Shown: positions 3,638 to 25,087 of the stretch, one piece after another | Layout: each line of letters opens with the position of its first letter | Position numbering within the stretch: position 1 is the first letter of the stretch | Assembly: GCF_000739065.1 (NCBI RefSeq) | Contig: NZ_CP009149.1 | Span: 1,497,311-1,561,310, forward strand | From: Methanocaldococcus bathoardescens | GTDB taxonomy: Archaea; AGJL01; Methanococci; Methanococcales; Methanocaldococcaceae | Direction of reading: 5' to 3' | Length of the DNA: 64,000 bases | Made by a program: the position numbers and the translations under genes | The notes under the pieces: model-generated | What the model was told of the DNA's origin: nothing | What the model saw: the letters and a program-made list of their open reading frames with translations, nothing else | Databases searched by the model: none

Positions 3638-3657
<20 letters not shown>

Positions 3658-4147
3658 ATCTTTCAATAATTTTTAAATAACTAACTACCAATATTGGGAC
3701 TAACGTTAATATAACTCCATATCCTGCAATTTCATGATATAGCCAAGGATTTTCTGGATGCATATTTACTAAATAGCAAACCAACACTATCCTAAAAATA
3801 TTTACAAAAAATGCCAATAATACAAAAAAGAGCCCAATTAAAAACTCTTTACTACTTTTAGAATAAACAATAATTAGAGCTAAAAATCCAGCAATTAAAA
3901 AACTTCCTGTGCATTCTTCAACTACTTCAACAGTGTTGTTTGGTAAATATATAAAATTATTCACCAATCTTGCATTTGGAATTATTATTTTTGTAAATAC
4001 GTAGCTTAGATAGGCGACTATTCCTATTAAATATTTTTCAAAATAGCCTAAAATAAAAAATGTTACTAAAAATGCGATATAAAACTTTATCAAAAACAGA
4101 ATTTTTTCTTTTTTGGATTTACCATTTGTGGATATATCCTCCACCAT
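3638..4147 (-). CDS. Archaeosortase/exosortase-like membrane protein
   Basis: A 169-residue protein with about four or five membrane segments. It carries the three-residue signature of the exosortase/archaeosortase transpeptidase family: cysteine in VEECTGSF, arginine in NIFRIVLV and histidine in LYHEIAGYG, in the correct order between membrane spans. Such enzymes cleave and anchor surface proteins with C-terminal sorting signals; no obvious substrate protein is seen in the window. It overlaps the end of thiL by 29 bases and its stop lies in a hairpin element. Start at MVEDIS is chosen from GGAGAGG upstream. Family assignment is by motif only. Confidence 0.75.
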
Positions 4148-5078
4148 AAAATTCCTCTCCATCAATAAACTGCCCCTCTTCTATAATTTTACCAATTTTA
4201 TAAATCTTTGAATAGCCTTTTAGTGAATCTTTCACTTTATTAAACTTGGATGTTGTAAATAAAAGCTCAAACTCCTCTCCACTATTTAAAACTACTTTTA
4301 TTGGGTTTAGGTTGAATTCTTCACAAAATTCAATAACATCGTCTGGAATAAGCTTAAAAATTTTATCACTGTATATCTCAAAATTTTTGAAATATGTTAT
4401 TTCCTTTCCTAAACCATCTGAGATGTCACAACAACCATTTATGAGTTTATTCATTAATAATCCTTCCTTAACCCTTGCAATAGGTTTTCTTAATTTTTCA
4501 ATAATCTTTGGATATTTTTGGCAAAGTTTTTCAAACTCACTATGGCTAATTTTGTTCTCCTTAAGCATATAATATAGAGCTAAAGCACAATAAACTCTAC
4601 CTAAATCATTAGTTACACAGATATCATCTCCAACTTCTCCCTTCCTATAAATTGGGTTGTCAGTTATTCCAAAGGCAGTTCCTGATAATACGAGCTCATC
4701 CCCTTTATTTGTATCTCCACCAACTACTGGGCAGTTATAAAGCTTAGAAAAATCATCTAATCCAGAATAAAGCTCTTTAATAAACTTCTCATTTGCTTCT
4801 TCTTTAGATAAGGATATTGATACTAAAAATGCCAATGGCTTAGCTCCCATGGATGCAATATCTGAAACATTTGCAGTTAAAATCCTTCCTCCGATTTCAT
4901 AAGGGGTTAAAATAGAAGGAATATGGGCTTTTTTAACCATCATATCTGTTGTAGCAACTAAATAAAAATTTTCATCAATTTTTATAACTGCACAGTCATC
5001 ATCAATGCCTTTTACTATATTTTCATTAGAAAATTTTAGAGTTTTTTTAATTAATTCAATTACTTTTACCTCATCCAT
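4119..5078 (-). CDS. thiL: Thiamine-monophosphate kinase ThiL
   Basis: ThiL phosphorylates thiamine monophosphate to thiamine pyrophosphate. The 319-residue protein has the family layout: GIDDDCAVIKI at the N-terminus (metal-binding aspartates), TTDMMV, NVSDIASMGAKP, VVGGDTNKGDE and the DISDGLGKE block with catalytic aspartates near residue 220. GAGGC precedes the ATG. A fused ThiD-ThiN, which supplies thiamine monophosphate, is encoded at 34212-35465, so two late steps of thiamine synthesis are in this window. Confidence 0.92.
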   Translation of the reverse strand: MDEVKVIELIKKTLKFSNENIVKGIDDDCAVIKIDENFYLVATTDMMVKKAHIPSILTPYEIGGRILTANVSDIASMGAKPLAFLVSISLSKEEANEKFIKELYSGLDDFSKLYNCPVVGGDTNKGDELVLSGTAFGITDNPIYRKGEVGDDICVTNDLGRVYCALALYYMLKENKISHSEFEKLCQKYPKIIEKLRKPIARVKEGLLMNKLINGCCDISDGLGKEITYFKNFEIYSDKIFKLIPDDVIEFCEEFNLNPIKVVLNSGEEFELLFTTSKFNKVKDSLKGYSKIYKIGKIIEEGQFIDGEEFYGGGYIHKW

Positions 5079-5090
5079 TTTTTAGCCTCT

Positions 5091-6461
5091 TTATGTTTTG
5101 AATTCGGCAGAGTATTTAACATCTATTAACCTATCTGTGTTTGCATCTAATAGCCCCACTATTAACCTTGTCTGTTTGTTATAAGGAACGTTAATCTTTA
5201 GCTTTACAACTTTCTCTTCTCCTGGTTTTATTGTTAATATAGAAGATTCTGTTGGATTGTAAACGTATCCATTACCAGCATCAAATGCACAATAGACTTT
5301 AACTTTTCCTTCTAAATTTCCTGCATTTTTTATATTAACTGTTATCTCAGCATAGCCATTATATAAATAACCTTTCCAGTCCCATAAATAAATAGGTTTT
5401 TCAGTTATTGGGTATACTTCAGCTTTTTCATTTTTTAATTCATCTGGAAGCGCTCCAATTTTCCATCCGTTATCTGTTGTTTCCAAATAGAAATATTTTT
5501 TTCCATTGTATTCAAAGTAATATCCATAACCATCTTTTAAATTTACTCCAACCCCCATATGTCTTGGGAATCTGATTAATGCAACATCATAACCCATCTG
5601 TTTTAATAAAGCGGCTGTTAATATTGATGTATCTTCACAATCTCCTCCATAATCAACCAAAGTCTCTATTGGGTATCTTGGATACTCATCATAGCCAGTA
5701 GAAACCTTGTCATAAGTGTAAGGAAGCTGTTGAACAAAGGAAATAACTAAATTTATCCTATCACGCTCATCATAATTATTTTCTTTGCAAATTTCATCTA
5801 TTTTTTGGATAACTCTATTTAAATACCAATCATCATAAGGGTCTAAAACGTAATATGAGTAATCCATAATATATTCTCTTTTTTTGGATTTGTAATAATC
5901 ATAGAGGTATTTTGGGATGTATAAATTTAAATAATGAATTTTTCCTTTGTATTCCCATGTGTATGTCATATAACAAACATCTGTGGAAGTTTGTGGATTT
6001 ATATTTTCTTTTTCATTTGATAGATGAGATAAAGATATGGGTGTATCAACCCATATAGTTTTTCCATTATCATAGGTAAAATCTATGGATATCCTTCCAA
6101 TGTTTGATGAGCTCTTTTTGATTTCATTTTTTTCTATTGTTAGTAAAATTCCATCACCATAAGATAGATTTTTAAATTTATCTAAATCTATAGATATTTC
6201 CTTATAATATAATTGGTTGTCCTTGTCATCATAAATACCTACTTTTAAAATTCCCTCTTTTTTAATAAAACTTGAATCTTCACCAACAAAATAGATTTTT
6301 AGAATGTATTCATTTTCATTCTCATTTAGGTCTAAAACTATTGAGGATATATCATTTTTCATTTCCATTAAATTATTGAAATCATTTTGATAGTTATTTA
6401 CAATACAACCAGAAAATATTATTGAAACAATCAAAATTGACAATAAAAGAAACTTTTTCAT
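5091..6461 (-). CDS. Transglutaminase-like surface lipoprotein
   Basis: The 456-residue protein starts with a lipoprotein-type signal (MKKFLLLSILIVSIIFSGC), so it is probably exported and lipid-anchored at Cys19. A transglutaminase-like domain is centred on residues 230-335: cysteine in YGGDCEDTS, histidine in RHMGVGV and aspartate in TTDNGW form the expected Cys-His-Asp triad. A C-terminal beta-rich domain (NIKNAGNLEGKVKVY) resembles CARDB/Ig-like modules. The cysteine-protease or cross-linking role is inferred; the substrate is unknown. A C/D sRNA lies just upstream on the same strand. Confidence 0.75.
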   Translation of the reverse strand: MKKFLLLSILIVSIIFSGCIVNNYQNDFNNLMEMKNDISSIVLDLNENENEYILKIYFVGEDSSFIKKEGILKVGIYDDKDNQLYYKEISIDLDKFKNLSYGDGILLTIEKNEIKKSSSNIGRISIDFTYDNGKTIWVDTPISLSHLSNEKENINPQTSTDVCYMTYTWEYKGKIHYLNLYIPKYLYDYYKSKKREYIMDYSYYVLDPYDDWYLNRVIQKIDEICKENNYDERDRINLVISFVQQLPYTYDKVSTGYDEYPRYPIETLVDYGGDCEDTSILTAALLKQMGYDVALIRFPRHMGVGVNLKDGYGYYFEYNGKKYFYLETTDNGWKIGALPDELKNEKAEVYPITEKPIYLWDWKGYLYNGYAEITVNIKNAGNLEGKVKVYCAFDAGNGYVYNPTESSILTIKPGEEKVVKLKINVPYNKQTRLIVGLLDANTDRLIDVKYSAEFKT

Positions 6462-6504: not shown

Positions 6505-6565
6505 TGGCATCAGCCGGCTTGCTACTCATCACAACTCAGACGGGGATAAACGTCATCATCTGCCA
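6505..6565 (-). ncRNA. C/D box methylation guide sRNA
   Basis: Read on the minus strand the 61-nt segment has C box ATGATGA (6553-6559), D' CTGA (6536-6539), C' GTGATGA (6526-6532) and D CTGA (6510-6513), closed by a TGGCA/TGCCA terminal stem. Spacers of 13 and 12 nt are the usual archaeal size. The D' guide is complementary to CGGGGATAA, a near-universal block of 23S rRNA domain V close to the peptidyl transferase centre. It is GC-rich in an AT-rich gap and lies 43 nt upstream of the lipoprotein gene on the same strand. Confidence 0.88.
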
Positions 6566-6806: not shown

Positions 6807-8036
6807 GTGACTAATAGAATAGAAATTGCTCCTACAACCAGACATGAGGGACACGCTAAATTAATTTTAGAGGTTGATGAGGAAGGGATTGTAAATAAAG
6901 CATATTATTTAAACACAACTCCAGTTAGAGGATTCGAAACAATGTTAAAGGGCAAACCAGCAGAGTTTGCTCCAATTGCAGTTATGAGAATCTGTGGAAT
7001 CTGTCAAACAACTCACGGAATTGCTTCTTGTGAAGCTATAGAAAATGCTATTGACTGTGAAGTCCCAGATGATGGTTTATTATTGAGGGAGTTAGTTGGA
7101 ATTGGAAACAGATTACATTCCCACCCATTACATCACTTACTAACAATTGATGACTTTTTAAAACCAGATGAGGCAGATTTAAGAGTAGAATTAATAAAAT
7201 TAATTCAGAGAATGAGAAAAGTTGGGCAATTAGTTGTGGATATTGTAGGAGGAGAAGGAATTCACCCACCAAACATTGTAATTGGTGGAATGAGAACAAA
7301 CATAACAGAAAGAGCTAAATCAAAGCTATACTATGCTTTAAGACAATATGAAAAAGACGCTTACGAATTATATGAGAAATACACTGAATTAATTGAAAGA
7401 TACTTAGAAGAAGTAGGAATTCCTGACTTAGGAGCTCATGAATATCCATACATTGCAACTCACACAACTTATGGGGATAGATACGCTATAAACTGGGATG
7501 ATGTAACTGAAATACCTGCTCAAAGATACTATGAAGATGAAGAGGCAAGACAAACAACAACAGTTCAAATTCCTTTATATGCAGGAGTTCCAGCTGAAGG
7601 TGGACCAAGAGCAAGAATGGTTAAATTCGGTAACTTTAGAGCAGGAGGAAGTGCATTAGACATCAATATTGCAAGAGCTCAAGAAAACCTTGGAGCTGTT
7701 TATAGAGCTTTAGAGATTTTAGATGAACTCAACTTAAATGGAAAGACAAGAGCTGAAGTTGAATACAAAGATGGATTTGGTATTGGAGTTCACGAAGCTC
7801 CAAGAGCTACAAACACCCACATGGCTGAAGTTGGAAAAGATGGAAGAATTAAGAGCTATAGAATTATAGCAGCATCAACATGGAACTTCCCAATTGTTGA
7901 AAAGGCAATTGAAGGTTATCCACAGCAGTATGCTGAAGTTATAATGAGAGCTTATGACATATGAGCTTCATGTGCTACCCACATAATAGTTAAAGATGAA
8001 GAAACAAAAGAAGTTATTGAAGTAAGAAAGTTATAA
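6807..8036 (+). CDS. frhA: F420-reducing hydrogenase large subunit FrhA, selenoprotein
   Basis: FrhA carries the NiFe active site of the F420-reducing hydrogenase. [10 protein letters not shown] near residue 60 supplies two nickel ligands. An in-frame TGA at 7962-7964 is followed by [18 protein letters not shown] and more, ending with TAA at 8034-8036, so the second ligand pair reads Sec-x-x-Cys in place of Cys-x-x-Cys. The UGA is read as selenocysteine: the SECIS-like hairpin follows immediately and methanogen FrhA (FruA) selenoproteins are known. With this reading the protein has 409 residues. GGAGGTGA sets the GTG start at 6807. First gene of frhADGB. Confidence 0.95.
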
Positions 8037-8070
8037 GCCTCGAGGGGAACCCGAAAGGGACCCGAGAGGC
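8037..8070 (+). promoter_or_regulatory. SECIS element for FrhA selenocysteine insertion
   Basis: A GC-rich hairpin begins directly after the frhA stop: GCCTC pairs with GAGGC at the ends, an upper CCC/GGG stem carries a GAAA loop, and an internal GAA-versus-A asymmetric bulge sits below it. This bulge is the conserved mark of archaeal SECIS elements, which lie in the 3' untranslated region. Confidence 0.9.
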
Positions 8071-8137: not shown

Positions 8138-8677
8138 ATGAAAGCTGAGATAGAGAACCAAGATGATGAATTGTTTGATTTAACTCCTTCGTATTTAAAA
8201 AAAGAGATTATGGTATTAGCTTGCGGAAATATATTATTTGCTGATGATGGCTTTAGCGTTCATGTTATTGAAAAATTGAATAAAATTTTAACTGATGAAG
8301 AAAAAGAAAAAATCGCTTTAGTTGATGCCGGAGCTGGAGCTCCTCAGCAAGTTTTAACATTAATAGATGAAAATTCTAAAACAAAAAAGATAATTGTTGT
8401 TGATGTAATTGATTGGGGATTAAAACCTGGGGAGATTAAAATAATTAGAAAAGATGAGCTTCCAAATCCAAAATATCATAAATTAGATTCACATGCTTGG
8501 CCTTTAGCTTCTTTATTGAGAGAAGTTGCTGAAAAATACAATATAGAGGTTAAGGTTGTTGGCTGTCAAGCTAAGTATATCTCTGAGCCAGATGTGTATA
8601 TTGGGCTGAGTGAGGAAGTTGAAAAAGCCGTTGATAAGGCAGTGGATATAATTCTTAGAGAGTTGAGAGGTGATTAA
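8138..8677 (+). CDS. frhD: Coenzyme F420 hydrogenase maturation protease FrhD
   Basis: A 179-residue HycI/HyaD-type peptidase that trims the C-terminus of the hydrogenase large subunit after nickel insertion. [18 protein letters not shown] near residue 31 holds the first metal-binding acidic residue, [10 protein letters not shown] follows, and [11 protein letters not shown] near residue 118 holds the conserved histidine. About 27 residues precede the core, somewhat longer than typical; no strong ribosome binding site decides the ATG. It lies between frhA and frhG in the expected frhADGB order. Confidence 0.9.
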
Positions 8678-8678
8678 A

Positions 8679-9362
8679 GTGGTTAAAGTTGCTCACGTCC
8701 AATTGTGTAGTTGTTGCGGCTGTTTGGTTTCTTTAGCAGATACTTATGAAAAGCTTTTAGATGTTTTGAATTCAATTGAGTTGGTTTATTGCCAAACTTT
8801 AGCAGATGCAAGAGAAATTCCTGAATGTGACATTGCACTTGTTGAAGGTAGCGTATGTTTAGATGACCACCACTCATTGGAAGTTGCTAAGGAAGTTAGA
8901 GAAAAAGCAAAGATTGTTGTAGCTTTAGGAGCTTGTGCAGCAACAGGAGGGGTTACAAGATACTGTAGAGGAAACCAATTATCAAAGCCAGTTCATAGCT
9001 CATTCTCTCCATTAACTGAGGTTATTAAAGTAGATTTAGCAATTCCTGGTTGCCCACCTTCACCAGAGGCTATTGTTTCAGTAATAACAGCTGCATTAAA
9101 TGGAGATATGGAATATTTACAACCATTTGCTGAACTTGCAGAGAATGGTAGTGAGGCTTGTGGATGTGATGTTATCAACAAAGTAGTTAATAAATCCCTA
9201 TGTATGGGTTGTGGAACTTGTGCTTCAGCTTGCCCAACAAGAGCTATAGAGATGTTAGATGGAAGACCAAACATTTTAAAAGAACTCTGTATTAAGTGTG
9301 GAGCTTGCTCAGTTCAGTGTCCAAGAATTAGATTCCCAGAGTTAATTGAGAAGATAGAATAA
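8679..9362 (+). CDS. frhG: F420-reducing hydrogenase small FeS subunit FrhG
   Basis: FrhG passes electrons from the NiFe site of FrhA to FrhB. The 227-residue protein has the small-subunit cysteines (CSCCGC at the N-terminus, [20 protein letters not shown]) and a C-terminal ferredoxin-like domain with [12 protein letters not shown] and [12 protein letters not shown], giving binding sites for several [4Fe-4S] clusters. The GTG start at 8679 follows GAGGTGAT; this ribosome binding site overlaps the frhD stop, indicating coupled translation. Confidence 0.94.
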
Positions 9363-9397: not shown

Positions 9398-10246
9398 ATG
9401 AATCCTTTTGGAGCTTATAAGAAAGTAGTTTCAGCAAGAAGTACATTAAAAGAAGTTTTAAAGAAGGCACAGGATGGAGGGATTGTATCTACTGCCTTCA
9501 TCTATGGATTAGAGAACAATTTATTAGATGGGGTTATAGTTGCAGATAATGCTGGGGAGTTTCAGGCAGTTCCTAAGGTAGCTACAACACCAGAAGAAGT
9601 TTTAGAAGCAGCAGGAACAAAATATACTGTCTGCCCTAATATATCAGTATTAAAGAGTGCTGTTAGAGAATATGGATGTGAAAAAATTGGAGTTGTAGGA
9701 ACACCATGCCAAGTTAGAGCTGTAAGAAAGTTAATGAAATATCCTATTGGTTTTAGACATGTTCCAGACAAGATTGCTTTGATTATTGGAATTTTCTGTA
9801 TGGAGAACTTCCCATACCAAGGATTAAAGTTAATTGTTGAGGAACACTGTGGAGTTAAGATGGAAGATGTTGTTAAAATGGATATTGGAAAGGGTAAGTT
9901 TTGGGTTTATACAAAATGGGGAGAGACAAAAGCAATTAAACTAAAAGAAACTCATCCTTACGAGCAAATTGCATGCCACGTCTGTACAGATTATACAGCA
10001 GAATTGGCAGATATTTCAACAGGTTCAGTTGGAAGCCCAGATGGATGGAGTACTGTGTTTATAAGAACTGCTAAAGCAGAGGAGATATTTAACAAAATGG
10101 TTGAAGATGGTTATTTGGAAGTTAAACCAATAGAAGAAGTTAAACCAGGTTTAGGGTTGGTTGAGAAATTAGCTAAGACTAAAAAAGAGAAGAACATGAA
10201 GGAAATCGGACATAGAAAGGAATTGGGATTGCCAGTTCCATACTAA
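9398..10246 (+). CDS. frhB: F420-reducing hydrogenase subunit FrhB
   Basis: FrhB is the FAD- and FeS-containing subunit that reduces coenzyme F420. The 282-residue protein shows the family features: YKKVVSARS at the start, [15 protein letters not shown], the CPN...[12 protein letters not shown] block, [12 protein letters not shown] and [15 protein letters not shown] with FeS-cluster cysteines, then [19 protein letters not shown] lies upstream of the ATG at 9398. It ends the frhADGB operon; T-rich sequence follows. Confidence 0.94.
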
Positions 10247-12023: not shown

Positions 12024-12086
12024 TTTGGCTCAGCTGCGGGAGTAGTCATCACAAAATCAGATAGCGAAATTGTCATCATCGCCAAA
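12024..12086 (-). ncRNA. C/D box methylation guide sRNA
   Basis: On the minus strand: C box ATGATGA (12073-12079), D' CTGA (12057-12060), C' GTGATGA (12046-12052), D CTGA (12030-12033), with a TTTGGC/GCCAAA terminal stem. The D' guide is complementary to TAGCGAAATT, the conserved 23S rRNA segment of the GGTAGCGAAATT region in domain IV. It lies 4 bp beyond the stop of the HNH gene on the same strand, so it may be processed from that transcript. Confidence 0.88.
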
Positions 12087-24768: not shown

Positions 24769-25087
24769 ATTTCATCATTTGAGAGGTCTGATTTTAACCA
24801 ATTTGTAAGAAAAAAGTTCCAGCCCAGTAGTTTATGACATCGTTTCCATTCCGAATCGGTCTGATTTTAACAAGTAGAATTAATAAAGTCGCATATGACA
24901 AAAGCAGATAAAGAAGTTTCCATTCCGAATCGGTCTGATTTTAACCTCTTCCATTCAAGTCCCTCCTTTGAAAATGTATGCGCCTTATAAGTTTCCATTC
25001 CGAATCGGTCTGATTTTAACAAGCAAACTTAGAAGACCCCGATATTATAGAGTTGTTGTTTCCATTCCGAATCGGTCTGATTTTAAC
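24769..25087 (-). CRISPR. Short CRISPR array, no cas genes nearby
   Basis: Four identical 30-base repeats (plus strand starts GTTTCCATTCCG and ends GTCTGATTTTAAC) lie at 24842-24871, 24916-24945, 24991-25020 and 25058-25087. A degenerate fifth unit at 24769-24798 keeps only the TTTC and the last ~15 bases. Spacers are 43, 44, 45 and 37 nt. On the minus strand the repeat ends ATGGAAAC, like the type I-B 5' tag ATTGAAAC, and the degenerate repeat is at the left end, so the leader is on the right and transcription runs leftward. No cas gene is in the window. Confidence 0.95.

Follow-up and report, generated by a model that had tools for sequence, protein, structure and literature searches.

The fruA gene of this Methanocaldococcus genome carries an in-frame UGA at codon 386 that is read as selenocysteine (Sec) and directed by a SECIS element located after the true stop codon, a reading to which we assign a probability of about 98%. 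The gene, also called frhA, encodes the alpha (large) subunit of the F420-reducing [NiFeSe] hydrogenase, 'FruA' being what the Sec form of FrhA is customarily called. The original prediction had proposed the selenoprotein, and was right to do so; the sole correction concerns novelty, both selenoprotein and SECIS having already been published. The feature is a correct rediscovery and ordinary for Methanococcales: PMC11881835 credits Wilting et al. 1997 with identifying the M. jannaschii SECIS and Rother et al. 2001 with showing heterologous expression directed by the 3'UTR element. The M. maripaludis fruA SECIS has since been dissected in vivo with a Sec-dependent reporter (PMC9622424, PMC11881835), and FruA figures in standard lists of methanogen selenoproteins (PMC2933860, PMC11097638).

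The features concerned are given below, with positions counted within the window, i.e. the whole 64 kb stretch of DNA that was analysed.

6807..8036, forward strand: fruA (frhA), F420-reducing [NiFeSe] hydrogenase alpha (large) subunit, GTG start, selenoprotein of 409 aa (TGA=U frame, TIGR03295, PDB matches)
6993..7004, forward strand: N-terminal nickel-ligand motif CGIC (C63, C66), from the TGA=U translation
7962..7964, forward strand: in-frame UGA, Sec386, first ligand of the C-terminal nickel pair (U386/C389), from frame reading and conservation
7965..8033, forward strand: FruA C-terminal segment, ASCATH plus tail (third-position substitution bias; 4ci0_A ends at CATH)
7983..8033, forward strand: FruA residues 393-409, which FrhD is expected to remove by cutting after His392 (chain end of 4ci0_A)
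8034..8036, forward strand: true stop UAA of fruA, in the frame with TGA=U
8037..8070, forward strand: archaeal SECIS in the 3'UTR, KTL motif GAA/A and GAAA loop (fold, motif scan, covariation, covariance model)
8138..8677, forward strand: frhD/fruD, hydrogenase maturation endopeptidase (TIGR00130, 4.1e-66)
8670..9362, forward strand: frhG/fruG, gamma (small, FeS) subunit (TIGR03294, 2.1e-124), starting at GTG 8670 or at an in-frame GTG shortly after
9398..10246, forward strand: frhB/fruB, beta subunit, F420-binding (TIGR03289, 7.3e-152)

FruA matched TIGR03295 (coenzyme F420 hydrogenase subunit alpha) at 686.7 bits against a curated cut-off of 392.5 (1.1e-206), and the match was full-length, covering positions 1-410 of 412. 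Its nearest solved structures were PDB 9r51_A (1.1e-126) and 3zfs_A (5.1e-105), and its nearest named relatives were Methanocaldococcus proteins of 92-95% identity. A ribosome-binding site, GGAGGTG, lies just 5' of the GTG at 6807, and the D (protease), G and B genes follow directly downstream.

Gene, UGA, tail and hairpin could all be read directly from the DNA. Under translation table 11 the open reading frame ends at 7964, after IMRAYDI, just where the original prediction had placed the apparent end of the gene and where it had expected an automatic caller to truncate it. Reading TGA as U instead yields a single open frame over 6807-8036, of 409 residues plus stop, in which codon 386 is the sole TGA; the 23 further sense codons with their ASCATH metal-ligand segment are present as foreseen, and every coordinate that had been given for fruA, TGA, stop and hairpin proved correct. 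The nickel ligands form two pairs, C63/C66 at the N-terminus and U386/C389 at the C-terminus, followed by H392. The C-terminal motif reads RAYD-I-U-ASCATH, and the proposal that the TGA occupies the position of the first Cys of the CxxC nickel pair holds, since Cys stands in the same column of Cys paralogues and of solved Frh structures.

Several observations concern other parts of the window. Rfam placed the C/D-box guide RNA sR1 at 6508-6564 (reverse strand), just upstream of the fru operon, and sR39 at 12028-12083 (reverse strand). An exosortase/archaeosortase-like membrane protein (PF09721) is encoded at 3638-4165 (reverse strand), with a ThiL-like kinase gene and a transglutaminase-like (DUF553) lipoprotein-like gene (5091-6461) as neighbours, and a short CRISPR array of four 30-nt repeats, of Rfam type CRISPR-DR13, lies at 24842-25087. 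No plasmid match was found.

We then compared fruA across the order. A phylum-wide search returned the same 36 Methanococcales genomes only, of which 35 contain fruA; a single fragmentary genome (54% complete) gave no fruA match. A TGA lies inside the gene in 35/35, and its codon position is shared by all 35 distinct fruA genes aligned. Across 30 distinct loci, substitutions in the first 13 codons after the UGA numbered 588, 87 and 2588 at codon positions 1, 2 and 3, the same kind of third-position bias as before the UGA (1982, 1708 and 11209). Judged by this pattern, the codons after the UGA are under protein-level selection. In addition, 11 Methanococcaceae genomes carry a stop-free Cys copy reading RAYDPC(I/V)SCATH, with Cys in the Sec column; no such second, Cys-type copy was found in Methanocaldococcus genomes at the search threshold used. 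Homologues lacking the UGA might have been expected to end differently if the reading were wrong, yet the 11 Cys paralogues and the solved Frh structures keep the same C-terminus.

These data bear on whether the UGA is a true stop, leaving FruA truncated and inactive or pseudogenised, as the automatic end at 7964 would have it. We consider this highly improbable and rejected the pseudogene reading: the tail beyond the UGA holds the required C389 and H392, and its conservation across 35 genomes bears the marks of protein-level selection; Methanocaldococcus genomes have no Cys-type copy, at that threshold, to take over from a truncated FruA, and the F420-reducing hydrogenase has a central role in making methane from H2 and CO2.

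The FruA proteins of M. jannaschii and M. maripaludis, whose alignment had been suggested as a check, have the same Sec position. The closest relative, a genome whose identity as M. jannaschii we infer, has its UGA at the same codon of a 96% identical protein, and its 34-nt SECIS is identical letter for letter; it is another species, and its trimmed tail is one codon shorter (RKL, versus RKML here). Methanococcus maripaludis and M. voltae FruA (fruADGB) share the Sec position, the 3'UTR SECIS and the operon order, but differ in the sequence of the basal SECIS stem and in having a Cys twin, FrcA, whereas the Methanocaldococcus genomes examined have the Sec form only and no Frc. The Frh of Methanothermobacter marburgensis (PDB 3zfs, 4ci0, 4omf) is the same enzyme, with the C-terminus RAYDPCLSCATH, but has Cys for Sec and Pro for the Ile just before it. 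The aligned residue is likewise Cys, within DPCxSCATH, in the F420-reducing hydrogenase of Methanothermococcus thermolithotrophicus (9r51), as in M. marburgensis (3zfs, 4ci0). Bacterial [NiFeSe] hydrogenases (for example PDB 5jsu and 3ze6) also have a large subunit with Sec, from the same superfamily, but belong to another hydrogenase group, and in bacteria the SECIS is part of the reading frame and follows the UGA immediately (PMC11881835).

The hairpin at 8037-8070, GCCUCGAGGGGAACCCGAAAGGGACCCGAGAGGC, lies immediately 3' of the true stop of fruA and can be divided into GCCUC-GA-GGG-GAA-CCC-GAAA-GGG-A-CCC-GA-GAGGC, with the asymmetric GAA/A loop between GGG/CCC and CCC/GGG. It folds at -21 kcal/mol (z -2.65; 1/200 shuffles equally good), and a scan for the GAA/A motif on both strands of the window returned this one site, with 0 in 10 shuffles. 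The 'kink-turn-like' GAA/A motif of archaeal SECIS elements and its flanking G-C clamps have been tested in vivo (PMC11881835), and the UTR location and the motif between G-C clamps given there are both found at 8037-8070. Among relatives, the hairpin is present in 30/30 distinct genes with a 3'UTR read, 50-104 nt from the UGA and mostly directly after the stop; GAA lies opposite A throughout these 3'UTRs, save at one locus with AAA (L051). In a 14-sequence alignment, 95.9% of cells are paired, with 18 two-sided changes versus 4.3 in shuffles, and sliding the partner strand destroys the pairing, no slid version being found nearby. One further sequence (L007) was left out of this alignment as the helix finder parsed a shifted register, its GAA/A hairpin being plain by eye. 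At the gathering score, Rfam gave no SECIS family match at the hairpin, which reflects the Rfam library rather than the element itself; we therefore built a covariance model from the relatives. Folding, motif scan and covariation together uphold the predicted SECIS-type hairpin with its GAA/A bulge right after the real stop, and the hairpin is the described archaeal SECIS.

One relative (L059, genome G002) has an unusually compact arrangement. Its FruA tail extends only 12 codons past the UGA, which would leave just 6 residues for FrhD to trim, and its SECIS stands as close as about 50 nt to the UGA, less than the usual lower limit of 80 nt stated in PMC2933860.

The Sec machinery was sought in the genome, a single contig of 1,607,556 bases. 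Absence of selB, selD or tRNA-Sec had been named as evidence that would tell against the reading; instead the complete Sec gene set was found, comprising a tRNA-Sec with anticodon TCA (UCA) and, all above their curated cut-offs, SelB (546 bits), PSTK (365 bits), SepSecS (616 bits) and SelD (232 bits), the last with an in-frame TGA of its own. Genome-wide, the covariance model (fruA SECIS hairpins plus one vhuU SECIS) revealed six SECIS elements, behind fruA, fwuB, vhuU, a HesB-like gene, vhuD and selD; apart from selD, the names of the additional genes were given by resemblance to the published set. In-frame UGA codons occur in the contexts TASVUHGPS (fwuB), DPUYSC (vhuU), GFGUGGPKFG (HesB-like gene) and HGUACK (selD), while vhuD has two, CCYQUGYG and VVGUKKGE. 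The vhuD and selD elements score weakly (E 0.2 and 5.5), yet lie just behind genes with in-frame UGA. The five elements other than that of fruA (L064-L068) map, in the order fwuB, vhuU, HesB-like gene, vhuD and selD, to genome positions 654576, 657300, 818109, 659797 and 763316, and automatic callers may truncate all five genes.

Even when no selenium is added, M. maripaludis continues to make some of its selenoproteins (PMC11097638), which would fit a UGA read through as another amino acid, such as Cys or Trp, in a selenium-free manner. For fruA this has very little probability and was rejected, given that the genome has the SECIS, tRNA-Sec(UCA) and every gene of the Sec set, and that reporter activity with the published SECIS requires selenium (PMC9622424).

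Under the selenocysteine reading, Sec would be made on its tRNA by PSTK and SepSecS from selenophosphate supplied by SelD, and archaeal SelB would bring Sec-tRNA(Sec)(UCA) to decode the UGA at codon 386 on instruction from the SECIS. The NiFe(CN)2CO site would then be held by Sec386 with Cys389 and by Cys63 with Cys66. Trimming of the peptide by FrhD after His392 is expected because, in M. marburgensis, chain 4ci0_A stops at the equivalent His, and should close the site, after which mature FruA, with FruG and FruB, would reduce coenzyme F420 with H2. For Sec insertion, trimming and enzyme activity, this scheme draws on published work on fruA in relatives and on established knowledge of NiFe hydrogenases. 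No evidence speaking against the selenocysteine reading emerged.

We also observed a striking uniformity of codons around the UGA (7959-7973 region). Among the 35 distinct Methanococcales fruA genes, the codon before it is AUA in 32 and AUG in 3, never AUU or AUC, although AUA accounts for just 604 of the 1489 Ile codons (41%) of this gene set, with no other conserved Ile column exceeding 66% AUA. Anticodons of the CAU type decode both AUA and AUG. Sec genes have Ile or Met where the Cys paralogues keep the Pro of DPC; downstream, Ser +2 is UCA in 32/35 and Cys +3 is UGU in 35/35, with Ala +1 free to vary. A nucleotide-level or P-site tRNA constraint on the recoding site, besides the SECIS, nevertheless seems unlikely. 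The third base is at least 90% uniform in 8/97 comparable columns, which weakens a strict context constraint; 3 of these 8 lie within 3 codons of the UGA (hypergeometric 0.025, for a comparison chosen after seeing the data). Two further points count against such a constraint: the sequences are related by descent, and the vhuU gene of this genome retains Pro before its UGA (CCU UGA). The uniform codons are thus at most a hint of a context effect; were it real, the context around the UGA may favour Sec insertion over termination.

The biology of selenoprotein FruA has been described since 1997, and ordinary gene calling would shorten fruA by 24 codons, with the loss of half of the nickel site. 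The Methanocaldococcus genomes have the Sec gene only and therefore an apparent need for selenium in F420 reduction by hydrogenase. This suggests that Methanocaldococcus, without a Cys twin, depends on selenium for its F420-reducing hydrogenase.
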